Part shown: piece by piece, positions 6,162 through 50,503 of the stretch
Layout of the letters: each line of letters starts with the position of its first letter
Numbering within the stretch: position 1 is the stretch's first letter
From: Levilactobacillus cerevisiae
GTDB taxonomy: Bacteria > Bacillota > Bacilli > Lactobacillales > Lactobacillaceae
Length of the DNA stretch: 64,000 nucleotides
Direction of reading: 5' to 3'
NCBI RefSeq assembly: GCF_003946245.1
Contig: NZ_RHNN01000008.1
Coordinates: forward strand, 62,001 to 126,000
Program-made: the position numbers and the translations under genes
The notes under the pieces: generated by a model
Databases searched by the model: none
What the model was told of the DNA's origin: nothing
What the model saw: only the letters and a program-made list of their open reading frames with translations

Positions 6162-6180
6162 TATTTCGTCTCCATTAAAT

Positions 6181-6349: not shown

Positions 6350-6360
6350 AGGAATCACAC

Positions 6361-6744: not shown

Positions 6745-6745
6745 T

Positions 6746-26003: not shown

Positions 26004-27572
<1,569 letters not shown>

Positions 27573-29873: not shown

Positions 29874-29971
29874 TAAATCAATCTCTCCTTTGATGAATAA
29901 TTTGTAAGGACCTAAAATTGCTATTTCCAATAAATCCTAATAAATAAGTACATATGAAATATACAACCGGA

Positions 29972-30119: not shown

Positions 30120-30144
30120 AGTTTGTGAATTGAGGAGCGTTATC

Positions 30145-32207: not shown

Positions 32208-32233
32208 GGTAGTCTCTGACCACATACTTGCGT

Positions 32234-32286
32234 AGCAAAAAACGGTGACAACTAACCCTCTGAGGTCGGTTGCCACCGCTTTTGCT
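32234..32286. terminator. Bidirectional terminator between araR and GPH symporter
   Basis: AGCAAAA and GGTG/CAAC arms pair with GTTG/CACC and TTTTGCT around a long loop. Confidence 0.85.
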
Positions 32287-32305
32287 AGTGGAAGTTAATG
32301 GTTAC

Positions 32306-33715
32306 TTAAGCGTTCTCCTTAGCTTGTGCGTGGCGTTCAGCTAAGTCTTCGGTAACGATTGGTTCGTGACGTTCCCATTTCCGGTAAACGACCATCAGAA
32401 TTAAACTGATGGCGTAGATGATCACGGGAACCCAGATGAAGGTGAAACTGATGGCACTCATGGTGCTAGCGGATTGTGCGGCTTTGGCAGCTGTGAATCC
32501 GAAGGCGGCCATGATCTTAGCAGCGATAAAGGAACCGATCCCAGCACCCATTTGGATACAGAAGGAGGCTCCCATCGCGGTTAAGAGGCCATTGGCCCGA
32601 ATACCACTCTTCCATTCACCAAAGTCAACGGTATCACCCACCATGGCGAAGAACATGGTGCAGGCGGAACCAGAACCGATACATGCTAAGATCCAGCCGA
32701 TTAAAGTGGAGGTAACGTTAGCACCAGCCAGGCCAATCCAGACTTGGCCGACCATGGTCAAGGCCAACATGAAGACAGTAGTTCCCCATTTGTGGAGGAA
32801 TTTAACGAACAGTGGCACGGAAGCCATCCCAATAATTTGAATAATGGAGAAACCATTGAAGAAGGAGATTAAGGATTTGTCGCTCAAATTGTATTGGAAG
32901 TAGTAAGGTAACGCAGCGTTCCGTGCAGAGTAGGCGGTCCAATAAATCAGGTTGGCAGCGACGATAATCATCCACGGCCAGTTACCCTTGGTAGCCTTGA
33001 AACTCTCTTTGATCGTGATAATTTCGTCACTCTCGATGTTCTTTTCCCGCATGTCCAAGAAACCAATAATCAGGAAAATGAAGGCAATGACGGCGTAAAT
33101 ACCAACGGCGATCGACCAACCACGTTGATCATTGCCCTTACCTACGGCGCTGGCCAAAGGCATGATGAAGGTGACCGCAAAGAAGTTACCGACGTTCCCC
33201 AGGACTAACCGAATAGAGTTGGCGGACATCCGGTCGTCAGAGTTAGACGTTAAGTTAGGCAAGACGGACGTAATAGGGGTCGACATCGCCGTGTAAGAGA
33301 GTTCGGCTAAGATGTACATTGCCCCGGCGTAAATGATTTTTGCCGTGCTACTCAGGGCAGGCGTCGTGAACAGTAACCAAACGAAGATGGCAAATGGGAG
33401 GGACATCCACAGGAACCAAGGACGACTCTTACCGTATTTACTGTGGGTATGGTCAACTAAGACCCCCATGACTGGCGCACCGATGGCGTCGATTACCCGG
33501 CCCAGCAAGAGCAAAGAGCCGGCAGTCCCGACGCCCAAGCCGAAGACGTTGGTGAAGAAGTAAAGCATGTAAGAACCGATGATACAGTACAGCAGGTTCC
33601 CGGACATGTCCGTGAAACCATACGTGATTTTCCGGTGTAAGGGTAGCCGGTCGTTCTTAAGAAGTGCCTGTGCGGCGGCAACGTTATGATCTGTTTGTTC
33701 CGTATTTGAACTCAT
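32306..33715 (-). CDS. GPH-family glycoside:cation symporter
   Basis: 469 residues, 12 hydrophobic segments. Family hallmarks: KITYGFTDMSGNLLYCIIGSY at the start, GRVIDAIGAPVMGVLVDHT between segments 2 and 3, and FGEWKSGIRANGL in the second half. MelB/XylP-type symporters move glycosides with H+ or Na+. Last gene of the minus-strand operon GH127 - small membrane protein - GPH, so it probably imports beta-linked arabinofuranosides that GH127 then cleaves. The C-terminal tail is short and lacks a PTS IIA domain. It resembles the GPH proteins at 37607 and 46649. Confidence 0.92.
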   Translation of the reverse strand: MSSNTEQTDHNVAAAQALLKNDRLPLHRKITYGFTDMSGNLLYCIIGSYMLYFFTNVFGLGVGTAGSLLLLGRVIDAIGAPVMGVLVDHTHSKYGKSRPWFLWMSLPFAIFVWLLFTTPALSSTAKIIYAGAMYILAELSYTAMSTPITSVLPNLTSNSDDRMSANSIRLVLGNVGNFFAVTFIMPLASAVGKGNDQRGWSIAVGIYAVIAFIFLIIGFLDMREKNIESDEIITIKESFKATKGNWPWMIIVAANLIYWTAYSARNAALPYYFQYNLSDKSLISFFNGFSIIQIIGMASVPLFVKFLHKWGTTVFMLALTMVGQVWIGLAGANVTSTLIGWILACIGSGSACTMFFAMVGDTVDFGEWKSGIRANGLLTAMGASFCIQMGAGIGSFIAAKIMAAFGFTAAKAAQSASTMSAISFTFIWVPVIIYAISLILMVVYRKWERHEPIVTEDLAERHAQAKENA

Positions 33716-33793
33716 TAGTTAAATCCTCACTTTCAATTTACCTTGATGTGTGCCTACTGTCAGTCTTACCAGCAGTGCGTCGGGGTTATCCAC

Positions 33794-33991
33794 CTAGCGC
33801 TTTGTTCGTGCCTTGCTATCGTGAGACAGGCTCATATAGATCAGGAGCAAGAGGACAGCTGCGCCACCAATCGTCCACAGATTATTTGCAATCTTGTGGT
33901 CCGCAACCTGCCATGCCAAATAAATCATGATCAGTTGAAGTCCCCATGAGATGAAGGATTGACCTGCAAACATTTTGGTTAAATATTTCAT
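33794..33991 (-). CDS. Small two-helix membrane protein
   Basis: 65 residues with ggaggcg before the ATG. Two hydrophobic segments: SWGLQLIMIYLAWQVA (about residues 15-31) and AAVLLLLIYMSLS (about 44-56), with a positively charged tail (KARTKR). It lies between GH127 and the GPH symporter on the same strand with ~80-bp gaps, so it belongs to the operon. No family recognised. An accessory to the transporter is possible but is inference only. Confidence 0.65.
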   Translation of the reverse strand: MKYLTKMFAGQSFISWGLQLIMIYLAWQVADHKIANNLWTIGGAAVLLLLIYMSLSHDSKARTKR

Positions 33992-34083
33992 TCTTATCGC
34001 CTCCGTGAACAGAATTGGGTAGAGCCGTTGCTCCAGCTAAAGAGTCGGCAGACTAATGACTAGGCAACGCAACAGTTGTGATG

Positions 34084-36054
34084 TTAAGCATTTTCCTTTG
34101 ATAGCCAAACACGCATTTGACCATCTTCGCGATTGGCCCAAGCATAGTAGGGTACCAAGGTAAGCGAAGTGGGTTGCCAAGTGGTTGGCTGATAATTTGA
34201 GTAGAGTGCATCCGTTTGCGGTGTTTGGCGAACAGCAGCCTGCGCCGTGATTTCACCCACACCATTTAAAATATTTGCATTGAAGTGGTATTGCAGGTTA
34301 GCATCTGCGGCCAAACGGTAGTTCCAGAGGTTTTCTGGGTTATCGGCCTGTTCAACACAGTAGACCATGGGGCCGCGTTGAATGGCGACCTTGCCAGCAT
34401 CCTCAGCAACGGCAGTATTGGCCTGAAGCTCGCGAATGCTAAAGTCCAGTGTTAAGTCAACGGTTAAGTCACCGGTAACATCGAGGTAAATGAATCCTTG
34501 ATTTACGGGAAGCGTTTGGCTAGAGCCATTGACCTGTACCGTGAAATCGGACCGGGACCAACTAGGAATCCGAATACCCAACGTTGTTTGAACTTTGTTG
34601 GGGTTTGTCACAGCGTAGTGAATGTGGTTGTCCCAAGGAAAGTTGCTAGTCTGTTCAATCTCAAGTCCTTGGTCAAACGTCGCCTTATTGGCAATAAATT
34701 GATGCGTTAAGATGGCTTTATCAGTGACCGTGTAAACGTATTGGTCAATGGATGATACTAACCGCGCAATATTACTTGGGCAGCAGGCGCAGCCAAACCA
34801 GTCTTGACGTTGACTCATGATATGGGCCTTGGACGGGTTCTGCTGAAATTTAGGATCGGCTGTGAGGGGGTTAACGTAGAAGAAATGCTTGCCGTCTAAA
34901 GAAATCCCACTCAGGGCACCGTTGAACAATTCCTTTTCAATGATGTCACCATATTCACCCTTGGCTTCGTTTTGTAGCATCTGCTTGGCAAAGAACGTCA
35001 AGCCGACTGAGGCACAGGTTTCGGCATACATCGTTTCATTCGGCAGGTCGTAGTCGTACGTGAAGGCTTCCCCTACGTTCGTTGAGCCAATCCCACCAGT
35101 GACGTACATCCGGCGATGAACAATGCTGTCCCAAAGTCGTTCACAGGCGGCTAGAAGGTCTTTGTCACCGGTTAGCCGGGCGACGTGAGCCATTCCCGTG
35201 CAGAGGTAAACGACCCGGACGGCATGACCCTTGGCGTCCTTTTGTGTCAGTAAGGGTTGATCAACCTGATAGTAGGTGTGGGTCACACCGTGCATGTTGG
35301 GGATGATATCGTTATCGAAACCATCTGCTTCAAGCTGACGGTCATAAAATTCAGGATCAACGCCCCGGTTTACTAAGAAGTAATGGGCGAGGTCGAGGTA
35401 CCGTTGCTCATGGGTAACTTCAAACAATTTGGCTAAGGCCAATTCAATTTCGGGATGACCGTCGGCAGCATGAATCTTCCCGTCTGCCGGGCCGAAGTTA
35501 GCATCAATACAGTCAGCCATCTTAATCGCAATGGTCAGCGCTTTTTCGTTGCCAGTAGCCTGATGGTAGGCGACACCAGCTTCAATGTAGTGGCCCATGG
35601 TGTAGAGCTCGTGGCTCTGTTGCAGTCGTTTGAACCGACGTTTGGGGGCATCAATTTGGAAGAAAGTGGACAGGTACCCATCGTCTTCTTGAGCGTCCGC
35701 AATCAAATCAATCAGGTTATCGGTAATCTGTTTTAAATCGGGATTGGGCTGGTAGCTAAATGAGTATGAAGCCGCTTCCAACCACTTGTAAACGTCTGTG
35801 TCTTGGAACGGAAAACCAAAGTGGTGACCGGTCATTTGTCCCGCAGCAATTTTTAAATTAGCAACGGCGTGACTGTTCTTTGAATCAGGGTTTTCGCCAC
35901 CTTTTTCATCGGTGATGTTGATATCTGCTTCGTCGTTCATGACCGCCCACTGGTAGGGAAGAACTTCTTTCACAATCAGTTGGCGATAGGTGTTCCAAAA
36001 GTCAGACGTGATGGTCACTTTAGGCGTGGCCGTGGATAGAGTCGATGCAGTCAA
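34084..36054 (-). CDS. GH127 beta-L-arabinofuranosidase
   Basis: 656 residues. The chosen start is a TTG at 36054, 8 nt after aaaggag; the TTG at 36072 overlaps the ribosome binding site itself. Central (alpha/alpha)6 fold. Family GH127 uses a zinc-held Cys nucleophile with a Glu and three Cys ligands: here E345 and C347 in MYAETCASVGL, and C424/C425 in FGCACCPSNIARL, exactly the HypBA1 pattern. No signal peptide: intracellular removal of beta-L-arabinofuranose, as in hydroxyproline-linked arabinans of plant extensins. Operon with a small membrane protein and GPH symporter; divergent from an AraC regulator. Confidence 0.94.
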   Translation of the reverse strand: MTASTLSTATPKVTITSDFWNTYRQLIVKEVLPYQWAVMNDEADINITDEKGGENPDSKNSHAVANLKIAAGQMTGHHFGFPFQDTDVYKWLEAASYSFSYQPNPDLKQITDNLIDLIADAQEDDGYLSTFFQIDAPKRRFKRLQQSHELYTMGHYIEAGVAYHQATGNEKALTIAIKMADCIDANFGPADGKIHAADGHPEIELALAKLFEVTHEQRYLDLAHYFLVNRGVDPEFYDRQLEADGFDNDIIPNMHGVTHTYYQVDQPLLTQKDAKGHAVRVVYLCTGMAHVARLTGDKDLLAACERLWDSIVHRRMYVTGGIGSTNVGEAFTYDYDLPNETMYAETCASVGLTFFAKQMLQNEAKGEYGDIIEKELFNGALSGISLDGKHFFYVNPLTADPKFQQNPSKAHIMSQRQDWFGCACCPSNIARLVSSIDQYVYTVTDKAILTHQFIANKATFDQGLEIEQTSNFPWDNHIHYAVTNPNKVQTTLGIRIPSWSRSDFTVQVNGSSQTLPVNQGFIYLDVTGDLTVDLTLDFSIRELQANTAVAEDAGKVAIQRGPMVYCVEQADNPENLWNYRLAADANLQYHFNANILNGVGEITAQAAVRQTPQTDALYSNYQPTTWQPTSLTLVPYYAWANREDGQMRVWLSKENA

Positions 36055-36116
36055 AATAAAATCTCCTTTCAAATAACACTAGCTAATATGGACGTATTGG
36101 CTGGGATGTTCGGCCG

Positions 36117-36144
36117 CTCTCACCGCAGGGAAAAACGGTGAGAG
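36117..36144. promoter_or_regulatory. Hairpin in the GH127 leader
   Basis: Perfect 9-bp stem CTCTCACCG/CGGTGAGAG with a 10-nt loop, followed by a second smaller CCTG/CAGG hairpin; both lie in the 365-bp space between GH127 and AraC. Too far from the starts to block ribosomes directly; role unknown. Confidence 0.45.
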
Positions 36145-36344
36145 GAGAGCGCCTGGCAGACTGGTGTCAGGCGACGATAAACGGAAAATAATGGCAATTT
36201 ATGATATAATGACATGTAATATCCAGAGCCCAAAAAATCGTTAAGTAGCTCAAAGCCATTAAGGACGGGAGTGGCAGTCGACGGTTAGTTCACGTGCAGA
36301 ACCTCGCTTTCTAAAATATGATAATTTGTCTGAACAACTATTAT

Positions 36345-36358
36345 TGTAAACGGTACCA
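36345..36358. promoter_or_regulatory. cre-like site
   Basis: TGTAAACGGTACCA matches 13 of 14 consensus positions, in the GH127/AraC divergent promoter. Confidence 0.5.
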
Positions 36359-36419
36359 ATTGGAAAGGTAGCCACTAACCTGTGAAAAAGGTGGCAATTT
36401 CCGACACGGGGTGAAAACG

Positions 36420-37394
36420 ATGAAGTTAATGCAAATCACGTTGAAGCAGCCGGTCTGGTTCTACAAGGCCGGTGAGTTCAGTGCAGATCAACCGGGATGG
36501 CGCCACAAACGAATGTACCATGAACATGACTTTGAAATTATTTTTTGCTTGCGGGGTCATTTTGATGTGAGTTTAAACGGGAAACCGCACCGAATTCATG
36601 CGAATGAATGCTGGATAATTCCACCGCACACCACGGTTGCTGGGACCCAAGACACCACGACTGCGGTGGACTTCTTTTGGGTACACTTTTTCTGTGACTG
36701 GCGATGGGTGGACCTACCGGATGTGCATTTGCGCAAGCTGATTCAGCAACGGGCAGACCATGAGCCAACCCATGACCTCGAATGTCAGGTTAATTTACCC
36801 CTCTGCTTTAAGGTGGAGAATCGCCAAGAAGTCTTGCTACAGTTCAATCAATTACTGGATTACACGAATCGGTATCACTACACGGATTACGGCAATCACT
36901 TAATTGCTCAGCTGACCTTAATCACGTTGGGGGATGCTTACCTAAAGCATTTGGTTGAAGCAACCGGCAACGTCCGTCCCAAGACCACCCGGATGGTGGA
37001 ATGGATCCGGGCGAACTTCTCAGCCGACTTAACCGTTGCGACGATTGCCCAGCATTTTGAAATGAGTCCGGATTATCTGACGAAGCTATTCAAGCAAGAA
37101 CAAGGGAAGAATTTACGCAATTACTTAATGGATATGAAAATTGAGGTGGCCAAACTGCTTCTGATGCGGACCAATTTACCCATCTCAACCATTGCCACGA
37201 CGGCTTATTTTCACGACGATAAAAATTTTATGAAGCTTTTCAAAAAGAAAACGAAAATGACGGCGGGCCAGTATCGAAGCAGTTATGGCAATACGCATTT
37301 GAACAATCCAGAAATTGATCCCAGTATTCCAATCCCACAAGATATCAGTGCTTTACTGGATCGCGAGGAAAATGAAAGCTCTGTGAAAAATTAG
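36420..37394 (+). CDS. AraC-family regulator (tail-type 1)
   Basis: 324 residues from the ATG at 36420 (GGGGTG 7 nt upstream); a GTG at 36411 is possible. The N-terminal cupin sensor begins FYKAGEFSADQPGWRHKRMYH with EIIFCLRGHF. The C-terminal double HTH covers RANFSADLTVATIAQHFEMS and ISTIATTAYFHDDKNFMKLF. After the HTH comes a proline-rich tail, LNNPEIDPSIPIP, shared almost word for word with the AraC proteins at 42514 and 45595. Divergent from GH127 and 210 bp upstream of a GPH gene; a local activator is likely. Confidence 0.9.
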   Translation: MKLMQITLKQPVWFYKAGEFSADQPGWRHKRMYHEHDFEIIFCLRGHFDVSLNGKPHRIHANECWIIPPHTTVAGTQDTTTAVDFFWVHFFCDWRWVDLPDVHLRKLIQQRADHEPTHDLECQVNLPLCFKVENRQEVLLQFNQLLDYTNRYHYTDYGNHLIAQLTLITLGDAYLKHLVEATGNVRPKTTRMVEWIRANFSADLTVATIAQHFEMSPDYLTKLFKQEQGKNLRNYLMDMKIEVAKLLLMRTNLPISTIATTAYFHDDKNFMKLFKKKTKMTAGQYRSSYGNTHLNNPEIDPSIPIPQDISALLDREENESSVKN

Positions 37395-37412
37395 TAAAGT
37401 GTTAGATTTTAT

Positions 37413-37452
37413 AAACACGGTGTTGCCAATCAGATTGGCAATACCGTGTTTT
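37413..37452 (+). terminator. Strong terminator after AraC gene
   Basis: AAACACGGT-TTGCCAAT pairs with ATTGGCAA-ACCGTGTTTT, about 18 bp. Confidence 0.9.
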
Positions 37453-37526
37453 CGTTTTAAAGTAGGGATAAATAAAGGCGACGACCTGGGCGTTGTGCTT
37501 GTATTTGCTATTTTATTGAGCTATTT

Positions 37527-37540
37527 TGAAACCGATTACA
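37527..37540 (+). promoter_or_regulatory. cre site (CcpA), perfect match
   Basis: TGAAACCGATTACA fits the cre consensus fully, 67 bp before the GTG of the GPH gene. Confidence 0.8.
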
Positions 37541-37606
37541 CCACATGGATACGCCCGGAATGATTTACGACCGTTTTTATAAATTTGCTTCAAGGAGGAA
37601 TTTCTT

Positions 37607-38983
37607 GTGAAAAGCCAAGTTGCAACTGCCGTCAAATCAGACGCCAAAGTGCCGTTCCACAGAATGCTAGCTTTTGCTAGTACGGATGCGGCAGGGAACT
37701 TACTCTATACGACGGTTACCACGTTTATTCTCTATTACTACACGGACGTGTTCGGCCTGTCTGTTGCTGCTGCCGGGACCGTGTTACTGGCAGCCCGGAT
37801 TTTAGATGCCTTTGATGCGCCGGTCTGGGGCTTCATCATCGACCACACGCATACCCGTTGGGGGCAGAGTCGTCCGTACTTCTTGTGGATGGCCTTCCCG
37901 TTTGCCATCTTCTTCGTCCTCATGTTTATGAGTCCAAATCTGAGTGCCAACGGTAAATTCTGGTGGGCGATGATTACATACCTGGTCTTCGGGATTTCCT
38001 ACACCGGGGTCGGTACGCCAATCAGTTCCATTCTGCCTAACTTGAGTAATGATTCGGACGAACGAATCAAGTTGAACAGTGTCCGGATGATTGGGGGGAA
38101 CATTGGGTTCCTGATTACCGCGACCTTCACGTTGAGTTTTGTCGCGTTCTTTGGCGGTGGTAATGATGTCGCTGGTTGGCGGAACACGGCCATTGTCTTG
38201 GCTGTTGCTGGTTTTGCACTGTTGATGTTTGCCTTCTTTGATACACGAGAAGTGAACACCGCTTCCCAGAAGTCGATTCCAATCATGGACAGTATCCGCG
38301 CTGCTAAGAGTAACTGGCCTTGGTTCATCCTGGTCATTGCGTTTATCTTCTACTGGTTGGGCAACTCTTCACGGACATCCGTGTTGGTTTACTACACCCA
38401 ATACAACTTAGGTGTCAAAGGTTTTGCGTCAATCTTGAACGCTTTAGTCATGTTCCAAATGGTCGGGATGGTCTTAATTCCATTCTTAGTTAAGAAATTC
38501 ACAAAAACGCACGTCTTGATGTTTGGTCTCTGCTTAGCAGCGTTTGGTCAAATCTTGATCTTCTTCACCGGCAAGTCTCTGATTGGTTTAGGGGTTGCCT
38601 GGAGTATTGCTTCAGTTGGTACTGGGATTTCCGTTTCCATGCCATTTGCCATGTTATCCGATACGGTTGATTATGGGGAATGGAAGAACGGTATCCGGGC
38701 CAGTGGCTTCTTAACGGCCATTGGGAGTTCATTTGCCATCAAGATGGGTTCTGGCTTAGGTGGCTGGGCACCATCCATGATTTTAGCAAATGCCGGGTAT
38801 AAAGCTGGTGCGACGCAAACGGCCGCATCACTGAGTGCCATTAAATTCTGTATCAGTTTCCTACCAGCTATTTTCTTCGTAATCGGCGCAGCAATTATGA
38901 TTTTCTACGCCCGTTACGAAAAGAAGGAAACCGGAATCAGAGCCGACCTTGCTGAAAAGCGTGGCGACTTAGCTGAAGATTAA
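37607..38983 (+). CDS. GPH-family glycoside symporter
   Basis: 458 residues with a GTG start 8 nt after aaggagg. Twelve hydrophobic segments; DAAGNLLYTTVTTFILYYYTD, ARILDAFDAPVWGFIIDHT and YGEWKNGIRASGFLTAIG are GPH hallmarks. No IIA tail. Close relative of the transporters at 32306 and 46649. First gene of an operon with an AraC regulator and a large DUF5695-like protein. A cre site sits in the promoter, so glucose should repress it. Substrate probably a plant oligosaccharide; not determinable from sequence. Confidence 0.92.
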   Translation: MKSQVATAVKSDAKVPFHRMLAFASTDAAGNLLYTTVTTFILYYYTDVFGLSVAAAGTVLLAARILDAFDAPVWGFIIDHTHTRWGQSRPYFLWMAFPFAIFFVLMFMSPNLSANGKFWWAMITYLVFGISYTGVGTPISSILPNLSNDSDERIKLNSVRMIGGNIGFLITATFTLSFVAFFGGGNDVAGWRNTAIVLAVAGFALLMFAFFDTREVNTASQKSIPIMDSIRAAKSNWPWFILVIAFIFYWLGNSSRTSVLVYYTQYNLGVKGFASILNALVMFQMVGMVLIPFLVKKFTKTHVLMFGLCLAAFGQILIFFTGKSLIGLGVAWSIASVGTGISVSMPFAMLSDTVDYGEWKNGIRASGFLTAIGSSFAIKMGSGLGGWAPSMILANAGYKAGATQTAASLSAIKFCISFLPAIFFVIGAAIMIFYARYEKKETGIRADLAEKRGDLAED

Positions 38984-39134
38984 CTTATTAGACACAGTAC
39001 ATTTGGTTGCGTGTGGAGAATATGTGTTACTGCTTAGCAATCGGAAAAAATTGAGCTTTAGACAATGGAAGGGCTGGCAGATTTTGTCAGTCCTTCCGTG
39101 GTATTCTGGTGGTAAAGATATTGGAGGTGAGTGG

Positions 39135-40031
39135 ATGGCACAACCGGCTTATATTTCTATTTCATGTTTGCCATTGCCGACGTTCATTGAAGGGGGGTAC
39201 GCGACCTTTCATGCCGGCGACCATCATCCGAACCGTAATAATTTACAGTATTTTATTCTGATGTTTATGGTCAAGGGGAAACTCTACATTTCTGAGGATG
39301 ATACGGATTACACGATTTTGCCCGGAGAAATGTTTGTCTTGTTGCCCATGCACCACCACTATTCTTGGCGTGCTATCTCCGAGGATACCGGTTACTACTG
39401 GCTACACTTTTATGTGTCGGGTCGCTGGGAACAGCAGCCAACACTAGAGCCGATGCGCTCGGCGATTAAGGTGCCCACACTGCATCACTATACGCCAACG
39501 GAAACGCTATATTTAGCCAAGCACACCCAACTGCGGCACCTGCCACGGTTAGAACAGATGACCGAGCAAATTTTTAAGAATAGTTCAGCTACCGAAGAAT
39601 ACGGCTTCTGGCAAGCACAACAGTTATTTATTGATGTGTTGCAGGAGGTTCAGGTGCAATCACAGGCTGAGTCGGCCATGGTCCAATTGTCAGCTCGGAT
39701 CCAGCGTTATTTGCGGGATCACTTTGATGAAAAAATCACGAATACGACGCTCAGTCAGGTCTTTCACTTTCATCCGAACTATTTGATTCGAACCCTGAAG
39801 GCTACGACCGGACTGACGCCAACCGAATATCTGCGACAGTATCGCATGGAAGAGGCTAGTAAACGCCTATTGAACACGAACATGTTGGAGACGGAAATCG
39901 CTGAGGCCATTGGGTTTCAGAATATTTATTATTTTTCGACGGTCTTCAAGCAGTACACGGGTTTGTCACCCAGTCAGTATCGACGGGAAAATACGCGTCG
40001 AATTAAAACGGACAAGGAGGGGCTGAAATAA
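39135..40031 (+). CDS. AraC-family regulator
   Basis: 298 residues from the ATG at 39135 after ggaggtg; 44 upstream in-frame codons are excluded. An N-terminal cupin (NNLQYFILMFMVKGKLYISE, MFVLLPMHHHYSW) and a C-terminal AraC double HTH (HFDEKITNTTLSQVFHFHPN, ETEIAEAIGFQNIYYFS, SPSQYRR). It lacks the LNNPEIDP tail of the other three AraC proteins in this island, so it is a separate lineage. Its stop codon TAA overlaps the ATG of the next gene by one base, meaning translational coupling with the DUF5695-like enzyme. Confidence 0.9.
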   Translation: MAQPAYISISCLPLPTFIEGGYATFHAGDHHPNRNNLQYFILMFMVKGKLYISEDDTDYTILPGEMFVLLPMHHHYSWRAISEDTGYYWLHFYVSGRWEQQPTLEPMRSAIKVPTLHHYTPTETLYLAKHTQLRHLPRLEQMTEQIFKNSSATEEYGFWQAQQLFIDVLQEVQVQSQAESAMVQLSARIQRYLRDHFDEKITNTTLSQVFHFHPNYLIRTLKATTGLTPTEYLRQYRMEEASKRLLNTNMLETEIAEAIGFQNIYYFSTVFKQYTGLSPSQYRRENTRRIKTDKEGLK

Positions 40032-42400
40032 TGGAATCAGCACAGTTTAAACTAGATGTTAATGCACGGGGAGCCGTGATTAACCTGCAAAATACCCAAG
40101 ATTCCCATGGCATGAACTGGGTCGTGGATCCGGCCTATTTAGAACAGGTGGGTTATCAGGACGAGGATAAACTCTTTGGTGAATTCACGTTGACGGTTGG
40201 GAGACACACCTATCAGAGTATTACCGTGACACCAACGGTTAGCGTAGCAGCCAACCAAACCACGGTTACGTACCCGATAGCGGGACTCACGGTGGTTGAA
40301 ACCTATCGTCTTGAGGCAGAAAAGGTTCGCTGGCAGATTACCGTGCAAAACCCGACAAATGCTGCAGTGACGCTCAGCCATCTAGGTGTCTGGGCTTCCC
40401 TAGCTTACGTCATGTTCCGGGATAAAAATGTTCACCGCAACATGGCCGATTCTACCGCCGTTTTCCCAAGCATTTCGGCTAGTTTCACCAAGCTAGCTGG
40501 TGTACGACGGGATAACCAGGGGCCGAATCTTGGACTGTACCAGACCGCTGGAACTACGCAATCCGTGGGGACTTACAACGAGTGGACCAATCGTTTCTTT
40601 GAGAATGTCTCGCCGTCATTGGATGGACTCCTATTTCATCAATTGGAATTAGCGGGCGGGTATCGACCAGGTGAAGCACCGAAAAATGACTGGATCTATC
40701 CACATGACAACGTGACGCTGGCCGCTGGTGGGCAACAAGCGTGGGGCTTCGTGCTCCAACCGTTTACGACGCAAGCTGACTTTCAACAAGTGGCGGTTGC
40801 CAATGGCCATCCGTTAGTTCGTTACGACCCCCTGCTGACAGCGGGAGAAACGACGGCCATCCAGCTGACATTGCCATCGCCACTGGATCGGTTGGTCTTG
40901 GAATATCAGGTTGACGGTCAGTTGCATCAAGACGATGTCACAGTGGACTTTGCCGGCAACACGTTACGAACCGCTGTCCAGGGGGCAGGGGAACATTGTC
41001 TCCGAATCTACCTGAAAGATGGTCGCAGTGACCTCGTCGTCTTCAATGTGATGGCAGCGGTGCGAGAATTGATTGAAACTCGTGTCGATTGGCTGACGGA
41101 GAACGCATACAATGGCAAGCGGCAAGAACCTTACGACGCATTTACGCCAATCTCGAATCAGGGTGAATCGTTGGGAAAGCTCAGCTTGATTCTGCAAACC
41201 AATCTCCTACATCAAACGGATAAGACACGGCAACAGGTGCAGGCTGTAGAAGCCAGCGCAGTCAACTACGTTAAGCCGAAGTGGTTTGCTGACGGTGACT
41301 TTTTCAAGCCGGTTAACCTGTACGGCGATTTCTATCGCGACATGGACTTTGAGTATATCGGGCACGTGTACTACTTGCTGGCGCAATTCGATGCAGATGT
41401 GCTCCAGCTACATGCGCCGGCAACCTATTTAAAATGGGCCGCACAGGTCTTTAACATGCGCGTTAACGCTGATCTCCACACGTCACAACGGGGGAAGGAA
41501 GAGGCGCACACGTTGGGGGTTTACTTCCTGTACATCAATGATTTGTTGACTGCGCTAAAGGAAAATGGCTTAACAGCGGAATACAAGCAGATCAAGCAGT
41601 GTTGGGAAGATGCCACGGCCAGAGTCGCGGCGCACAGTAGTGAGTATCAGGCTGCCATTACGGAACACTTCTACGACAATGCAGGATTTGGTCCAGCAAC
41701 GGGCGCGCTGGCAAACGCTGGTTACGTCGCGCAAGCTCGGCTCTATGCGGAACTGTTGAAAGCTAACATTGGTTTTAGCAATGATTTCCGGAGCCAGGCA
41801 CCAGATCGGTGGTGGGAGGCCCAGTCCTACATGATTCATTCCTTGTGGGGCGGCATTACCGCTGCTTCCGCGTTGAACGCCTATGAGGTGCTGGATGATA
41901 CGGATTTGCTGCTGGCTTCATACCGGGCATTTGTCGGTGTCCTCTACATGTACGATAGTCACGCCACGACGCCTACGAATCAGTTGGCACCAGGTGAAGC
42001 AGCCTCGACTTACAGTATTGCGGGACCTAATTTGAACCGGCCAGATCTGTCGCGGAATCGTTTTGGTCAGTCAACCTTTGCCAAGGATGGCGGCATCTAC
42101 ACACGGCTCTTCCCGGATGGTGATACCGGTCAAGCCGACTGGGATATGGGTGAAGAGCTGGCCGCTTACCTGACGGGTTTTGGCCAGAATGCCTACCTGT
42201 ACGAGCAAGCGGATGGTGAATTAGCAGTCGTGAATGGCAAATTAGAACGATTGTCACCCACACAATATCGCGTGACCAACGCTGCACCGTACCCACATGC
42301 TGTGAAATTTATCCATCAGCACAAAGAGGTGGTTACCACGGCGACTCAGGTTATTTATGATCTTAACCAGGGCTTTTTGCCAGCTGAAGTCGAAGAATAG
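40031..42400 (+). CDS. Large DUF5695-like protein, putative glycoside hydrolase
   Basis: 789 residues, no signal peptide or membrane segment. The N-terminal ~330 residues are beta-rich (GEFTLTVGRHTYQSIT, VVETYRLEAEKVRWQITVQN), like the beta-sandwich that precedes (alpha/alpha)6 barrels. The C-terminal ~450 residues are helical, with conserved aromatic/acidic patches (YGDFYRDMDFEYIGHVYYLL, DRWWEAQSYMIHSLWGGITA, LAPGEAASTYSIAGPNLN, ADWDMGEELAAYLTG). I believe this is DUF5695, a family without a described activity. Location in a GPH-AraC operon suggests an intracellular glycosidase or lyase of the imported glycan. Function is not established. Confidence 0.7.
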   Translation: MESAQFKLDVNARGAVINLQNTQDSHGMNWVVDPAYLEQVGYQDEDKLFGEFTLTVGRHTYQSITVTPTVSVAANQTTVTYPIAGLTVVETYRLEAEKVRWQITVQNPTNAAVTLSHLGVWASLAYVMFRDKNVHRNMADSTAVFPSISASFTKLAGVRRDNQGPNLGLYQTAGTTQSVGTYNEWTNRFFENVSPSLDGLLFHQLELAGGYRPGEAPKNDWIYPHDNVTLAAGGQQAWGFVLQPFTTQADFQQVAVANGHPLVRYDPLLTAGETTAIQLTLPSPLDRLVLEYQVDGQLHQDDVTVDFAGNTLRTAVQGAGEHCLRIYLKDGRSDLVVFNVMAAVRELIETRVDWLTENAYNGKRQEPYDAFTPISNQGESLGKLSLILQTNLLHQTDKTRQQVQAVEASAVNYVKPKWFADGDFFKPVNLYGDFYRDMDFEYIGHVYYLLAQFDADVLQLHAPATYLKWAAQVFNMRVNADLHTSQRGKEEAHTLGVYFLYINDLLTALKENGLTAEYKQIKQCWEDATARVAAHSSEYQAAITEHFYDNAGFGPATGALANAGYVAQARLYAELLKANIGFSNDFRSQAPDRWWEAQSYMIHSLWGGITAASALNAYEVLDDTDLLLASYRAFVGVLYMYDSHATTPTNQLAPGEAASTYSIAGPNLNRPDLSRNRFGQSTFAKDGGIYTRLFPDGDTGQADWDMGEELAAYLTGFGQNAYLYEQADGELAVVNGKLERLSPTQYRVTNAAPYPHAVKFIHQHKEVVTTATQVIYDLNQGFLPAEVEE

Positions 42401-42447
42401 ACACTGGTAAGCTGGTCTTAGAGTCAGTTTGGATATGGATGTCACAC

Positions 42448-42484
42448 AAAAAACTCGTCTCCATAATTTGGGGACGAGTTTTTT
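42448..42484. terminator. Bidirectional terminator
   Basis: AAAAAACTCGTC-CC / GG-GACGAGTTTTTT between the convergent DUF5695-like and AraC genes. Confidence 0.9.
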
Positions 42485-42513
42485 GTATAGTTTGGAAAAT
42501 CTGCGGGCTATTT

Positions 42514-43416
42514 CTACCGGTTCAATGAAGCTGGTTTGGGGATAGTGGGATCGACCTGCGGATTGTTCAGGTAAGTTTTGTCATAAGAATTACGGAATTT
42601 TGAAGGCGTAATGCCGGTCTGCTGTTTGAAAACGCGTAGGAAATACTTCTCATCACGAAAACTTAGTTCGAGAGCAATCTGCTTGATGGTGGCATCGGTT
42701 GTTAAGAGGAGCTCCTGTGCTTGGGCAATCTTGACCCGGTTGATGAATTGAACGGGCGTTACCTGATGACGTTCACGAAAAATTTGGGCCAGATAGGTGG
42801 GCGTGATGTGAAAATTTTCGGATACCCGTTGGACGGTTAGTGGTTCGTGACTGTGAATGCGAATCCAGTTTTTAATCAACTCGAAGCGGGTTGAAGGGAC
42901 AGTCGATTGCTGTTTCTGGCTGAGTGATAGGTATTGATTGGCCAGTTCAATTAAGATAGCAGAAATCAGGTAGTTGCTAGTGATTTCCAAGGTGGCTGAG
43001 CGATTTGCGCTATCCAATAATTGGCGCATCAACAGGGCAAAGCGTTCAAAATTTTCTAGTTTGAATATTTGCGGGAGGTAGGCGACAGGCTCATGCATAT
43101 CTGGTACGGGGAAATTATCAAGTGGAACATTCGCTTGCGAATAGAAGTGCATCCAGTAATAGTCTGTTCCGGCGGGTGAACCTTGGTAGCCTACGTGTCT
43201 GACAGCGGGTGGAATCAAAAGGCATTCATGGGGCCCAACAACAAATTTATCGGCACCAATTTGAATGTAGGCAGCTCCTTTGAGGACGACGAATAATTCA
43301 TAGTCACCGTGATTGATGATATCTTTGTGCTGCCAACCCGTGTCTGCCAGATATTGGCCGGCTTTATAAAAGATCGCTGGCTGGGATAGATTGAATTTGT
43401 ACACTTTATTGGTCAT
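42514..43416 (-). CDS. AraC-family regulator (tail-type 2)
   Basis: 300 residues from the ATG at 43416, preceded by cgaggtggg; the frame runs 51 codons further but would overlap the divergent GH31 gene. The N-terminus KVYKFNLSQPAIFYKAGQYL and cupin IINHGDYELFVVLKGAAYI closely match the AraC at 45595. C-terminal HTHs: TVQRVSENFHITPTYLAQIF and IKQIALELSFRDEKYFLRVF. Tail YLNNPQVDPTIPKP. Divergent from GH31 with a perfect cre site between, so it probably activates the GH31 gene. Confidence 0.9.
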   Translation of the reverse strand: MTNKVYKFNLSQPAIFYKAGQYLADTGWQHKDIINHGDYELFVVLKGAAYIQIGADKFVVGPHECLLIPPAVRHVGYQGSPAGTDYYWMHFYSQANVPLDNFPVPDMHEPVAYLPQIFKLENFERFALLMRQLLDSANRSATLEITSNYLISAILIELANQYLSLSQKQQSTVPSTRFELIKNWIRIHSHEPLTVQRVSENFHITPTYLAQIFRERHQVTPVQFINRVKIAQAQELLLTTDATIKQIALELSFRDEKYFLRVFKQQTGITPSKFRNSYDKTYLNNPQVDPTIPKPASLNR

Positions 43417-43501
43417 TTTGCCCACCTCGAGTTTCGTTTTGTCCACGTTGTTCTTTATTTTATCAGTTTTAACTTCTGTTGAAAAGCCGTAAAATCGGTT
43501 T

Positions 43502-43515
43502 TGTAATCGGTTACA
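43502..43515. promoter_or_regulatory. cre site (CcpA), perfect match
   Basis: TGTAATCGGTTACA fits the consensus and is palindromic around CG; 25 bp before the GH31 start, so a bound CcpA would block transcription. Confidence 0.8.
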
Positions 43516-43539
43516 TAGGAATCGAAAGGAAGTCATCGA

Positions 43540-45591
43540 ATGATTTATGAAGAGGAAAATGCCCTCCATTTACGTCAAGGACATGAGACTTTGACCGTTG
43601 AAGCGTGGGGGAAGAACAGTTTTCGGGTTAGGAGCACACGGTATCCAGATTATACGGGCAATAGAAATGCGTTAACCATGGCGGTTAGAGCAACTCGGGC
43701 GACCGTTACTGTAGCTGCCGACGCCCAGACTGGGCAAATCACTAACGGAAAATTAACTGCTAAGATTGATGCTTACCATAATTTGAGCTTTTTCAATCAA
43801 AAGAATCAAGAGTTACTTCGCGGGTACCAACGGAACCGGGTTGACGAAATGACGACCGAGGTCGATCAGAGCAAGGTGAATCACTTTAATAGTGCGCTTA
43901 ATATTGATTCCCGGGAGTTCAAGTCTCACTTGGGTGGGGACTTTGAATTAAAGGTGAGATTTGAAGCCTATGCTGACGAAAAAATATTTGGAATGGGTCA
44001 GTATCAACAAGATTTTCTAGATTTGAAGAACGCTAAATTAGAATTGGCACACCGCAACTCGCAAGCAAGTGTCCCATTTATGATTTCTAATCGTGGATAT
44101 GGTTTTCTCTGGAATAACCCGGCTATTGGGGATGTTGATTTCGCCAAGAACTTAACAGAATGGCATGCGTTGTCGACTAAGGAAATGGATTTTTGGATTA
44201 CTTGCGGCGATGAACCCAGTGAGATTGAAAAGCAATATGCAGCTGTAACTGGAACGGTGCCGATGATGCCTGATTACGGTCTCGGTTACTGGCAATGCAA
44301 GTTACGTTATCGCACGCAAGAAGAATTATTGACGGCGGCCCGTGAATTTAAGCGGCGGCAATTACCTATTAGCGTGATTGTCATCGACTATTTTCACTGG
44401 CCTAAGTCGGGAGAATATACCTTTGATCCGGCATACTGGCCGAATCCGCAAGAAATGATTGATGAGCTGCATGCAATGGGCATCAAACTGATGGTTTCTG
44501 TCTGGCCAACGGTGGATGAAACTAGCAGTCATTATGCTGAAATGGCCGAGAAAGGTTATCTAGTTCAAGCAGAACGAGGGGTACCCATTGCCATGAATTT
44601 CTTGGGAAATAATGGCTTTGTAGACTTTACCAATCCCAAAGCCCAACGCTATTTGTGGCAATTGCTCAAGAAAAATTATGCGGACAAGGGGGTGGATCTC
44701 TTCTGGTTGGACGAGGCTGAGCCGGAATACACCGTATATGATTTTGATAATTATCGGTACTACGCGGGCAGCAATCTGCAAGTCGGCAATCAGTATCCTG
44801 TGGACTACTCGAAGGCAATTTTTGATGGAATGCAGGCGAGTGGTCAGCAAAAGATCGTTAATCTCGTGCGGTGTGCTTGGGCAGGGAGTCAACGGTATGG
44901 TGCCCTAGTTTGGTCCGGGGATATTGATTCAAGCTTCCAGTCCTTACGTAACCAACTTGCAATTGGTTTAAATATGGCCATTGCTGGAATTCCATGGTGG
45001 ACTACTGATATTGGGGGATTCCACGGTGGTGTGGATGATGATCCTAAATTCCGGGAGTTAGTGACCCGGTGGTTCCAGTTTGCAACGTTCTGTCCAGTAA
45101 TGCGGATGCACGGCGACCGCGAACCCCATACGGCACCGTTAAGTCAAGTTGGTGGCGGGAAGATGCCATCTGGGGGTGCGACTGAACCGTGGGCTTATGG
45201 TGAACAGACGTACGGCATTATGAAGAAGTATCTGCAACTCCGCGAGAACCTGAAGGATTACTTGCGTGTGCAAATGCAAGCCGCACATGAATCGGGGACA
45301 CCGGTCATTCGACCACTATTTTACGATTTTTCGACGGACTCTGTGGCATGGAAAGTTGAAAATCAGTTCATGTTAGGACCAGACATTTTGGTGGCACCTG
45401 TCCTGTATGAAGCGGCCAGTTCAAGAAAGGTGTACTTACCCGCGGGAGAAGAGTGGGTGAACGTTTATACAGCAGAAACGTTACCTGGTGGCCAAACGGT
45501 TCAGGCAGAAACGCCATTGGCACAATTACCGGTATTTGTCCGCCAGTCGGCTTATCAAGGCCTAGAGAAAGCCTTTCTTGTTATTCGATAG
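43540..45591 (+). CDS. GH31-family glycosidase, alpha-xylosidase type
   Basis: 683 residues. An N-terminal beta-sandwich, then a TIM barrel with LPISVIVIDYFHWPKSGEYTF, nucleophile motif LFWLDEAEPE (about residue 390), acid/base region WSGDIDSSFQSLRNQ and IPWWTTDIGGFHG. The WLDxxEPE form of the nucleophile motif is typical of alpha-xylosidases acting on xyloglucan oligosaccharides or isoprimeverose rather than of alpha-glucosidases. No signal peptide. GGAAGTC-type weak site before the ATG. Divergent from AraC(43416); convergent with AraC(46497), whose stop is only 3 bp away with no terminator between. Confidence 0.9.
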   Translation: MIYEEENALHLRQGHETLTVEAWGKNSFRVRSTRYPDYTGNRNALTMAVRATRATVTVAADAQTGQITNGKLTAKIDAYHNLSFFNQKNQELLRGYQRNRVDEMTTEVDQSKVNHFNSALNIDSREFKSHLGGDFELKVRFEAYADEKIFGMGQYQQDFLDLKNAKLELAHRNSQASVPFMISNRGYGFLWNNPAIGDVDFAKNLTEWHALSTKEMDFWITCGDEPSEIEKQYAAVTGTVPMMPDYGLGYWQCKLRYRTQEELLTAAREFKRRQLPISVIVIDYFHWPKSGEYTFDPAYWPNPQEMIDELHAMGIKLMVSVWPTVDETSSHYAEMAEKGYLVQAERGVPIAMNFLGNNGFVDFTNPKAQRYLWQLLKKNYADKGVDLFWLDEAEPEYTVYDFDNYRYYAGSNLQVGNQYPVDYSKAIFDGMQASGQQKIVNLVRCAWAGSQRYGALVWSGDIDSSFQSLRNQLAIGLNMAIAGIPWWTTDIGGFHGGVDDDPKFRELVTRWFQFATFCPVMRMHGDREPHTAPLSQVGGGKMPSGGATEPWAYGEQTYGIMKKYLQLRENLKDYLRVQMQAAHESGTPVIRPLFYDFSTDSVAWKVENQFMLGPDILVAPVLYEAASSRKVYLPAGEEWVNVYTAETLPGGQTVQAETPLAQLPVFVRQSAYQGLEKAFLVIR

Positions 45592-45594
45592 GGG

Positions 45595-46497
45595 TTAGGG
45601 ATGCTCGGGTTTAGGAATAGGTGGATCGACCTCTAGGTTATTTAAGTAGGTGTGACTGTTTGAATTCTTAAAATGTAAGGGGGAAACGCCGACAAATTGC
45701 TTGAACTGACGCATGAAGTACTTTTCACTCTGATAGCCCATTTCAAAGGCTACCTGTTTAATTGATTGATTCGTTGTCAGTAAAAGCTCCTGGGCCTCTT
45801 TAATCTTGACTTGATTGATGTAATGAATGGTCGAGGTTTGACGATATTTCTTAAATAGCTTGGTTAAGTAAAGCGGAGACAAGTGGAACTCATCGGCTAC
45901 CCGCTGAACAGATAGTTTTTCATGACTGTGAATACGAATCCAGTTGATAAGGGATTCCATCTGTGCAGGTAGTCGATTTTGTGTGCTCTCACGTAGTTGC
46001 TGGGCCCGAAATTGGTCGGCAAGTTCAATGACCACACTTGTCGTGAAGTAATCGGTTGCTAGATAAGAGGAATGGTGACTGTTGGCGCTGTCTAACATTT
46101 GACGGATGATCAAAACGGCCTTTTCAAAGTCATCGAGATGAAAAAGCTGTGGTAGAAGAATTTGATTGGCAATGGGTTCTGCGGATGGATTCGAGTCCGC
46201 ATTCACGGCGACAGGGCCATTCGGAAAGAAATGGAACCAGTAGTGAGTCGAACCGGCGATTGCGCCCTGATAACCACAGTGTTTGACGTGCGGCGGAATC
46301 AGGAGACAATCATGCGCTTTGACCGCAATTTGTTCACCATTAATGGCGATGAAGATTTCTCCACGAATCATGATAATCAATTCGTAATCACCATCGTTAA
46401 TCATGTGTTTGTGCCGCCATCCTTCAGGCGTCATGAATTGTCCTGCCTTGAAGAAGGAAAGCGCGCGAGTGATGTTAAATTTGTATACCTTTTGCAT
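45595..46497 (-). CDS. AraC-family regulator (tail-type 3)
   Basis: 300 residues from the ATG at 46497; a TTG five codons upstream is less likely. N-terminus KVYKFNITRALSFFKAGQFM, cupin INDGDYELIIMIRGEIF. HTHs: SVQRVADEFHLSPLYLTKLF and IKQVAFEMGYQSEKYFMRQF. Tail YLNNLEVDPPIPKP. Strongly similar to the AraC at 42514, pointing to duplication around the GH31 gene. Divergent from the GPH-GH36 operon, its likely target. Its 3' end nearly touches the GH31 stop, so convergent transcripts overlap. Confidence 0.9.
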   Translation of the reverse strand: MQKVYKFNITRALSFFKAGQFMTPEGWRHKHMINDGDYELIIMIRGEIFIAINGEQIAVKAHDCLLIPPHVKHCGYQGAIAGSTHYWFHFFPNGPVAVNADSNPSAEPIANQILLPQLFHLDDFEKAVLIIRQMLDSANSHHSSYLATDYFTTSVVIELADQFRAQQLRESTQNRLPAQMESLINWIRIHSHEKLSVQRVADEFHLSPLYLTKLFKKYRQTSTIHYINQVKIKEAQELLLTTNQSIKQVAFEMGYQSEKYFMRQFKQFVGVSPLHFKNSNSHTYLNNLEVDPPIPKPEHP

Positions 46498-46562
46498 AAT
46501 AATGTGCCCCAATCCGTTATTTTGTATACCTTTGTATTGATTTTAACAGTTTTTTTCACTTC

Positions 46563-46576
46563 GTAAAGCGCTTACA
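46563..46576. promoter_or_regulatory. cre-like site
   Basis: GTAAAGCGCTTACA has the palindromic AGCGCT core and 12 of 14 consensus bases, 73 bp before the GPH gene. Confidence 0.5.
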
Positions 46577-46648
46577 CTTATTTTTGTGATCAAGCTTGAG
46601 TAACGATGAACAAAATTGCATTTGCTATTATGAAAGGATACGAACACT

Positions 46649-47995
46649 ATGGACGAGACTAAGAAAGTAGCAACCAATCCAGGTAAGATATCAATTCTTG
46701 AAAAATTTAGTTATGCGCAGCTAGATACTGCTGGGCAGTTAGTTTTCACAATGATCAGTAGTTACTTGCTTTACTTTTATACGGATATTGCGAAGATTCC
46801 AGTCGCAACAGCGGGGGTCATTCTGCTGGTTGCGCGGCTCTTCGATGGTATCGACGCGCCCATTTGGGGTACCCTAATTGATTTGACAAATTCCAAATGG
46901 GGTCGTGCCCGGCCGTACTTCCTCTGGCTAGCGGTACCATTTTCACTGTTTGGGATTATGACGTTCTGGGCGCCACAAATCGGTCTTAACGGTCGAATCT
47001 GGTACTGTGCGATTACGTATATCATTACGGGAATTCTGTATACAGGGTTAAACACGCCATTGACTGCTGTCTTGCCGCTCCTGACACCAGATCCAGGCCA
47101 AAGATTGAAATTGAATTCTTGGCGGATGACTGGTTCACAATTAGGTGTTTTGATTGTCAATGCGTTAACACTACCACTGGTTGCCTTCTTTGGCGGTGGC
47201 AGTGATACCAAAGGTTTTCGGATCACGATTACCATCTTTGCCATCTTGAGTGCCGTTATGACACTGTTCTCCTTCGCTCACATTAAGGAACGGGTCCAAG
47301 TAACTGCCGAAAGAACCTCCTTGAAGAAAGGGGTTCACGCAATGAACAAGAACTGGCCATGGCTGATTATTGTGATCAGTAATTTCTTCTTCTGGATTGC
47401 TCTGACGGAACGGACCTCAACGCTGGTTTACTACTTCACTTATAATTTTGGCAACAAAGGCTTGGTAACGTTCTTTAATTCGATTGCCTCCGTTCAAATC
47501 ATTGCGATGATCTCTATTCCGTTCTTAAACAAATTCTTTACGAAGCGAAATATTTGGATTGGCGCTTTGATTGCGGCAATTTTGGGCCAAGTTATTATTC
47601 TCCTCGCCGGGATGAACTTACCAATCGTAATCACCGGGTGGATTATTGCAAACATGGGGTCTGGTGTCGCATGTTCGATGCCTTTTGCCATGCTAGGTTC
47701 TGCCGTCGATTATGGTAAGTGGAAGAACGGCGTGAACGCTGCTGGGTTACTGACGGCAATTGGGAGCTCCTTCTGTGTAAAGGTTGGAAGTGGGATTGCC
47801 GGGTTTATCCCATCGATGATTCTTGCTGGCTTTGGTTACGTTGCTGGTAAAACGCAGACTGCCCATGCCTTATCAGGAATCTCACTGAGTTTTAACTGGG
47901 TGACTATCGTGGCTTTTGCTATTGCTATTCTGCCTTTACTGTTCTACAAGAAGTATGAAAACATGGAAGATACGATTCGGGAGGCCGTCAAATGA
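46649..47995 (+). CDS. GPH-family glycoside symporter
   Basis: 448 residues; ATG preceded by gaaagga. Twelve hydrophobic segments with QLDTAGQLVFTMISSYLLYF, ARLFDGIDAPIWGTLIDLT and YGKWKNGVNAAGLLTAIG. No IIA tail. It overlaps the GH36 gene by four bases (ATGA), so the pair is translationally coupled and the transporter very likely delivers the galactoside that GH36 cleaves. Third GPH gene of the island; divergent from AraC(46497). Confidence 0.93.
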   Translation: MDETKKVATNPGKISILEKFSYAQLDTAGQLVFTMISSYLLYFYTDIAKIPVATAGVILLVARLFDGIDAPIWGTLIDLTNSKWGRARPYFLWLAVPFSLFGIMTFWAPQIGLNGRIWYCAITYIITGILYTGLNTPLTAVLPLLTPDPGQRLKLNSWRMTGSQLGVLIVNALTLPLVAFFGGGSDTKGFRITITIFAILSAVMTLFSFAHIKERVQVTAERTSLKKGVHAMNKNWPWLIIVISNFFFWIALTERTSTLVYYFTYNFGNKGLVTFFNSIASVQIIAMISIPFLNKFFTKRNIWIGALIAAILGQVIILLAGMNLPIVITGWIIANMGSGVACSMPFAMLGSAVDYGKWKNGVNAAGLLTAIGSSFCVKVGSGIAGFIPSMILAGFGYVAGKTQTAHALSGISLSFNWVTIVAFAIAILPLLFYKKYENMEDTIREAVK

Positions 47996-50127: not shown

Positions 50128-50160
50128 GCTGCTGGTCGCAAAGTAGTCTTAGGTAAAATG

Positions 50161-50196
50161 AACCACTCTCCCAGATGGATGGGCGAGTGGTTTTTT
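50161..50196 (+). terminator. GH36 operon terminator
   Basis: AACCACTC-CCC / GGG-GAGTGGTTTTTT stem. Confidence 0.9.
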
Positions 50197-50503
50197 ACCT
50201 TAACGTGTTATTTATCCGGATAACTAGATAAACCCGTAAAATAGGACGTGAGTGATTAACCAATTGAAGCAAATTAGTTCTTATTGTGAGCGGTTCCTTT
50301 CCTCTTAAATCACAGCTCAAACGATCAATAAAAAAATAGTATGGAGATAGATGCCTCAAAAGACCGTAGAAACAGCCAAAAGAGAAATAATCCGTATAAA
50401 TATATTTTCTCGCTTGATTTATGCGAACAAAAATTGTACAATTCTTGTGTTGAGTCATAAGTGACAGAATTAACTAGCCGACAGAGCTATGGAGGTTAAT
50501 CGC
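50197..50503 (+). promoter_or_regulatory. araBDA control region
   Basis: About 305 bp without a gene. Near the araB end lies the palindrome AATTGTACAATT (50432-50443), extendable to CAAAAATTGT/ACAATTCTTG with one mismatch, 61 bp before the start codon. It is the best AraR-operator candidate in the window, since known AraR sites are TTGTAC-containing palindromes. A weak cre-like TGTGAGCGGTTCCT is at 50285-50298. The ribosome binding site atggagg precedes the ATG at 50504. Confidence 0.6.

Follow-up and report, generated by a model that had tools for sequence, protein, structure and literature searches.

What does a large protein with no database match do beside the sugar symporter and AraC-family regulator of a lactobacillus? 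The protein in question, P0001, is encoded in a 64,000-nucleotide stretch of Levilactobacillus cerevisiae DNA (contig NZ_RHNN01000008.1, positions 62,001 to 126,000; hereafter the window, with positions counted from its first letter). Searched alone it has no match in Pfam even at E 10, none in NCBIfam at 0.001 and none by sequence in the PDB at 1. We find that it is a member of a superfamily that also holds the polysaccharide lyase (PL) family PL27 and the Pfam family DUF5695, within which sequence comparison makes a family of its own the best reading. P0001 is very probably an enzyme acting on an imported plant glycoside, and we tentatively favor the reading that it is an intracellular enzyme freeing L-arabinose from an imported oligosaccharide by hydrolysis on a lyase-like scaffold.

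40031 to 42400, plus strand: P0001, PL27/DUF5695-superfamily protein, 789 amino acids (homology searches, fold comparison)

The frame runs uninterrupted from ATG to TAA through 789 codons. P0001 is 83% identical to its L. brevis CD0817 homologue, and the two genes differ at 125 first, 88 second and 439 third codon positions over the 789 codons; because of this pattern and the full-length homologues found in many genomes, the frame is a real coding gene, which bears out the 789-residue open reading frame of the first-pass annotation made from the sequence. Simple hydropathy shows neither a hydrophobic N-terminus nor a membrane segment, and P0001 is accordingly taken to be cytoplasmic.

The link to a known enzyme comes from the family profile. 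A profile of 25 members matches one solved protein in the PDB, BACCELL_00875 (5no8/5nok; E 1.7e-8), the bacterial PL27 L-rhamnose-alpha-1,4-D-glucuronate lyase that takes rhamnose off plant gums; the match is strongest over the front domain and continues behind in weaker stretches that keep their order. According to the original PL27 paper, the active site reportedly lies in the barrel pocket, with a tyrosine proposed as the base and a glycoside hydrolase (GH) of family GH105 acting next. Structures of P0001 were predicted from a 25-row alignment (model 1; predicted local distance difference test, pLDDT, 82.8; predicted template modeling score, pTM, 0.83) and a 44-row alignment (model 2; pLDDT 87.3, pTM 0.90). 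With model 1, Foldseek retrieves BACCELL_00875 at 6.7e-27 over nearly the whole length, the next unrelated fold following at 5.1e-9 with a root-mean-square deviation (rmsd) >20. Comparison by VIA gives the same partner for model 1 (Z 31.2, rmsd 3.0, 603 residues) and model 2 (Z 29.9, rmsd 2.9, 618 residues), and the next-best rows (Z 16-18) cover the barrel. The regions of the predicted fold are as follows.

40031 to 41053, plus strand: N-terminal beta-sandwich region, residues 1-341 (DSSP)
41057 to 42175, plus strand: helical (alpha/alpha)6-type barrel, residues 343-715 (DSSP, VIA)
42188 to 42379, plus strand: C-terminal beta strands, residues 720-783 (DSSP)

P0001 and PL27 thus share a beta-sandwich and an (alpha/alpha)6-barrel over their full length, although P0001 is 80-100 residues longer and has extra C-terminal strands. 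Residues 1-247 resemble galactose mutarotases (VIA Z ~15), and the barrel, by analogy with PL27, is expected to carry the active site. DSSP in both models confirms the beta-rich front and helical (alpha/alpha)6-like back that had been proposed at first pass. The comparison with GH folds also suggested then yields a carbohydrate-active-enzyme fold, except that the full-length fit is to the PL27 lyase, GH76 and GH88/GH105 fitting the barrel only. Unsaturated glucuronyl hydrolases of GH88/GH105 and AGE-type epimerases have the same helical barrel (Z 15-18 over ~300 residues), but match P0001 over that part only and far more weakly than PL27. An N-acylglucosamine/cellobiose epimerase or GH76 identity was rejected for its barrel-only fit (Z 13-18). 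In a library of viral structures, full-length matches to the P0001 model superpose poorly, and nothing else was retrieved.

Profile-profile comparison with hhalign connects the family to three PL27 sequences (E 6.9e-16) and to nine DUF5695 (PF18951) sequences (E 2.2e-22 over 595 columns), and PL27 to DUF5695 (E 1.6e-31). GH127, used as a control, reaches E 0.072 over 113 columns (in GH127-like rows only), and with no Pfam match besides, a GH127 kinship of P0001 was rejected; GH127 and GH146 beta-L-arabinofuranosidases are helical-barrel enzymes, and arabinosidase-type genes occur in the same loci as the P0001 family. The initial label of DUF5695-like therefore stands as homology, though of a distant kind, with P0001 scoring 18.9 bits in the translated genome search under the Pfam gathering cut-off of 25.2. 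With E values up to 10 allowed, six of the 25 family members match DUF5695, the best at 3.6e-6, and NCBIfam yields scattered weak matches only among the 25 (best 0.0044). Two new PL27 sequences also score under the DUF5695 cut-off (8.6 and 9.2 bits). Many of the DUF5695 open frames that we met are 1300-2500 residues long, against the 789 of P0001. We know of no function assigned to DUF5695, and the literature, seen as titles and abstract beginnings and mostly without subscription papers, offered none for DUF5695 or the P0001 family.

A 54-row tree of 42 family, nine DUF5695 and three PL27 sequences resolves into three corresponding groups (support 100/100, 100/99 and 100/100), with long branches and an unsure deeper branching order. 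The P0001 family does not group with the PL27 members, to which P0001 is ~16% identical, and DUF5695 likewise forms a separate clade. Since the sequence tests for both failed, P0001 should be filed as neither PL27 nor DUF5695, though the scaffold is the same. The 42 family rows, which are the 44 members minus a fragment (L010) and a 604-residue member with an in-frame stop in the genome search (L078), have a lowest pairwise identity of 38%. Homologues lie in 10 named loci, all in Lactobacillaceae, and the genome counts, each including the window's own genome, are 29/301 in Lactobacillaceae, 12/398 in the class (one of them, G376, has a longer open frame that matches over only ~118 positions) and 3/398 in the phylum. 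P0001 has no Pfam or NCBIfam match and few members have any, yet 9 of the 40 Lactobacillaceae genera sampled have the family, as do other Bacilli. In two Lactobacillaceae genomes the copies appear decayed or truncated (L078:7909-9720 and L076:8063-10270). A phage or plasmid origin was rejected, as P0001 has no tblastn match in phages or plasmids; 32000-50200 has no megablast match in plasmids, and no tRNA was found in the 64-kb window.

Several barrel residues are conserved across the superfamily:

41165 to 41167, plus strand: E379, invariant in 42/42 family members
41336 to 41338, plus strand: R436, invariant in the family (42), PL27 (3) and DUF5695 (9); MAFFT and hhalign pairings agree
41663 to 41665, plus strand: E545, invariant in the family (42), PL27 (3) and DUF5695 (9); MAFFT and hhalign pairings agree
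41816 to 41818, plus strand: E596 of the RWWEA motif, Asp in PL27 (RHWDG); MAFFT and hhalign pairings agree
42011 to 42013, plus strand: Y661, invariant in 42/42 family members and 3/3 PL27 sequences (MAFFT)

Here, PL27-invariant means present in 3/3 PL27 sequences, in alignments at about 16% identity; several of the columns compared fall in loops that the model predicts with low confidence. By MAFFT, R593, W595, E379 and Y661 are common to the family and PL27, in addition to R436 and E545, and E596 and D549 of the family occupy the positions of PL27 D596 and E541. The pairings of R436, E545, D549, R593, W595 and E596 are repeated by hhalign; in DUF5695 the counterpart of D549 is invariant, as are those of R436 and E545. 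Only MAFFT places E379 opposite a PL27-invariant Glu; hhalign pairs it with another acidic PL27 position. Y661 is the sole PL27-invariant barrel tyrosine that MAFFT pairs with an invariant family tyrosine; it lies past the end of the hhalign alignment and in a low-confidence stretch of the model. P0001 lacks five other PL27-invariant residues: R162, H164 and H594 are replaced by S, A and W in 42/42 family members (MAFFT), and H612 and Y613 fall on gaps by MAFFT or on S604 and L605 of P0001 by hhalign. At PL27-invariant Y540, 29 of the 42 members have Y and the other 13 have F. From this conservation, E545 and E596 are the best candidates for catalytic carboxylates.

Immediately upstream lie the genes with which P0001 is probably expressed:

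37413 to 37451, plus strand: terminator-like hairpin of 18 pairs ahead of the operon (pattern scan; consensus match only)
37607 to 38983, plus strand: GPH-family (MFS_2) sugar:cation symporter, first gene of the likely operon (TIGR00792 390 bits; PF13347 1.3e-83)
39135 to 40031, plus strand: AraC-family regulator (PF12833, PF00165, PF02311; start chosen from sequence)
40014 to 40020, plus strand: AAGGAGG, ribosome-binding-site-like, within the AraC 3' end (sequence)

For the AraC gene, the ATG at 39135, preceded by GGAGG, is a likelier start than the TTG at 39003 of the listed open frame. Its stop TAA (40029-40031) shares one base with the ATG of P0001, and AAGGAGG sits 11-17 bases ahead of that ATG; this overlap and site make translational coupling of the two genes plausible. 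The hairpin divides the symporter, AraC and P0001 genes from a preceding AraC gene; the scan found 13 terminator-like sites against 8.1 expected, the stem at 37413-37451 being the longest by far. Promoter-like sites (18 found, 10.6 expected) were not used as evidence. The three genes likely form one operon, judging from their arrangement. Of what had been claimed here at first, the AraC regulator and the sugar symporter hold as observed, and the coupling and the common transcript are to be read as plausible and likely, respectively.

Joining these elements, we propose that the GPH symporter would import a short plant glycoside, which the coupled AraC regulator probably senses. The terminal sugar would sit in the barrel pocket, adjacent to the beta-sandwich, and the terminal bond might be cut there by invariant carboxylates (best candidates E545 and E596, with R436 near). 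The product would most likely be L-arabinose, which the locus could use through its own AraA, AraB and AraD.

The substrate part of this proposal leans on the company that the family keeps. We compared the flanks of 44 loci, 33 of Lactobacillaceae type and 11 from other Bacilli, to which the window contributed 32000-51999 only; the cluster labels AraA, AraB, AraD, AraR, GH51, GH43 and GH127 each come from one annotated representative. Among the Lactobacillaceae-type loci, 32/33 have the AraC cluster and 31/33 the GPH cluster, and an arabinosidase-type gene (GH51, GH43, GH127 or beta-L-arabinopyranosidase-like) occurs in 22/33, araA, araB or araD in 11/33, and any arabinosidase-type, ara or AraR-type regulator gene in 23/33. 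Some arabinose-type gene is found in 4/11 loci of other Bacilli (two of these carrying araA-araD-araB) and none in 7/11.

Whole-genome content points the same way. AraA (L-arabinose isomerase) is present in 28/29 Lactobacillaceae carriers of the family versus 16 of 41 non-carriers hand-picked from 272 matchless genomes (the 12 of the same genus and 29 taken at about every tenth), with a Fisher value of 2.9e-7 that does not come from independent draws, since the carriers share ancestry. It lies <=30 kb from the family gene in 13/29 carriers, where 0.7 would be expected for a 2.5 Mb genome, and is also present in 10/10 non-Lactobacillaceae carriers. The context of the family in Lactobacillaceae is thus arabinose-linked, with few rhamnose or GH105 genes, in contrast to that of PL27.

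Because the sole solved homologue over the full length belongs to a polysaccharide lyase family, P0001 could work by either lyase or hydrolase chemistry, and the strongest competing explanation, in our judgment rather unlikely, is that P0001 is a PL27-like uronate lyase that uses beta-elimination to split off rhamnose or arabinose from an alpha-1,4 linkage to glucuronate, leaving an unsaturated uronate. It draws on the residues E545, R436, R593 and, by MAFFT, Y661 that P0001 has in common with PL27, and on a PL27 relative in another genome of the phylum (L113:3420-5549, genome G160) that has an MFS_2 (GPH-type) symporter immediately behind it (5672-7171), a pair that suggests PL27-type action inside the cell, on a substrate brought in from outside. 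A KduI-family gene is present in the window's own genome, on a different contig. Against such a lyase stand the replacement of R162, H164 and H594 throughout the family, the F at Y540 in part of it, and the gene content of the carriers. No GH88/105 match over the cut-off was found in the window's own genome; such matches occur in 4/29 Lactobacillaceae carriers (all <50 bits, one a short piece) and 1/41 non-carriers. RhaA (rhamnose isomerase) is found in 2/29 carriers and 8/41 non-carriers, and KduI in 4/29 carriers, the window's genome included, versus 6/41 non-carriers, which is no association; the KduI count left out the 10 non-Lactobacillaceae carriers. We prefer a hydrolase on account of this gene content and the lost PL27-specific residues, activity playing no part in the choice.

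Besides the shared ancestry of the carriers, several observations weigh against an arabinose-releasing hydrolase. The only characterized superfamily member that we found is a lyase, and the candidate residues lie in or near low-pLDDT loops. In 10 of the 33 Lactobacillaceae-type loci there is no nearby arabinose-cluster gene, although one of them (L048) carries a GH127-like gene; the neighbors examined in L073 and L075 are peptidase and glycerol-use genes, whose clusters recur in L074 and L077. In carriers G418 and G486, a weak GH88/105 match lies <200 bases from a KduI-family gene (G486 contig C4:81804-83453; G418 contig C19:7469-8882); given that neighbor, these matches are probably real and a uronate route is plausible there. 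One of the two pairs shares its contig with the family gene, ~43 kb apart. Finally, 10/10 non-Lactobacillaceae carriers have RhaA and 9/10 have strong GH88/105 genes, so a PL27-like route is possible in those genomes.

The loci that have no nearby arabinose genes also speak for a further explanation, that P0001 is a glycosidase, phosphorylase or epimerase-like enzyme acting on another imported glycoside, arabinose being in the locus without being the product. It is compatible with the resemblance of the barrel alone to GH76, AGE epimerases and GH88 (Z 15-18), and GH94 phosphorylases match the whole length but superpose badly; with AraA in nearly every carrier and PL27 as the only full-length fit, we regard it as improbable. 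A role without catalysis, in which P0001 binds sugar as a partner of the coupled AraC regulator or the symporter, would suit the one-base overlap in the window and the near-constant AraC and GPH genes of Lactobacillaceae-type loci, but is very hard to credit where the AraC neighbors are wholly on the opposite strand (11 loci) or where LacI-type and ABC-permease genes occur (9/11 loci of other Bacilli), and with barrel motifs conserved far beyond scaffold needs.

For P0001 as first annotated, a candidate new glycosidase, a carbohydrate-active enzyme in an arabinose locus is well supported, and the glycosidase part goes further than the evidence. It is conceivable, if somewhat doubtful, that P0001 founds a new L-arabinosidase family, hydrolysis having evolved on the scaffold of a polysaccharide lyase or the lyase having evolved from a hydrolase. 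To our knowledge, one lyase activity is known in the PL27/DUF5695 superfamily; an L-arabinosidase would place the release of arabinose beside it, help in interpreting DUF5695, explain part of the plant-glycan use of lactobacilli and join PL and GH families through common descent.

Longer relatives accompany the family in some loci. One case is Schleiferilactobacillus harbinensis (L008), where a probably secreted multidomain DUF5695 protein that also carries LamG, Ig-like and F5/8-type domains is encoded upstream, two genes separating it from the family gene; the gene of this multidomain protein (1179-5826) is split into overlapping frames (1179-2381 and 2359-5826) by a break or an assembly error. 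In two loci of other Bacilli (L064, L065), the family gene and a binding-protein transporter share a stretch with a long DUF5695 protein. At L064:1-4485 and L062:13802-18400, long proteins of several domains (PKD, Ig-like) stand beside ABC importers and the family gene; the former matches DUF5695 and the latter has no DUF5695 match at E 0.01. An outer DUF5695 enzyme, an importer and an inner P0001 relative acting in series is an attractive idea suggested by these arrangements. A further PL27 relative, 36% identical to 5no8 and annotated as a hypothetical protein, is encoded on a Croceibacterium plasmid (L112:9923-11989).

Elsewhere in the window are further carbohydrate-related genes:

26004 to 27548: GH51-like gene (similarity to annotated representative)
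28893 to 29930: GH43-like gene (similarity to annotated representative)
34084 to 36072: GH127 (best NCBIfam match "aceric acid hydrolase", 391.8 of 950 bits, well under cut-off)
47992 to 50127: melibiase-like protein (best NCBIfam match "beta-L-arabinopyranosidase", 503.4 of 1100, well under cut-off)

With scores so far under the cut-offs, the substrate specificities that the latter two names imply are provisional. The three large proteins nearest P0001 are a GH127, a GH31 and the melibiase/beta-L-arabinopyranosidase-like protein; the first-pass statement that all other large proteins of the island are carbohydrate-active enzymes with assigned families holds for these three, the ones checked. 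The protein at 30130-31035 is 33% identical to the representative of a cluster that recurs in 9/44 flanks, which has a helix-turn-helix in residues 1-75 and, over the other 240, matches nothing in Pfam. The AraC-type regulators at 36411-37394, 42514-43569 and 45595-46512 form one sequence cluster, each near a symporter or glycosidase gene, and perhaps reflect repeated duplication of regulator-transporter-enzyme sets.

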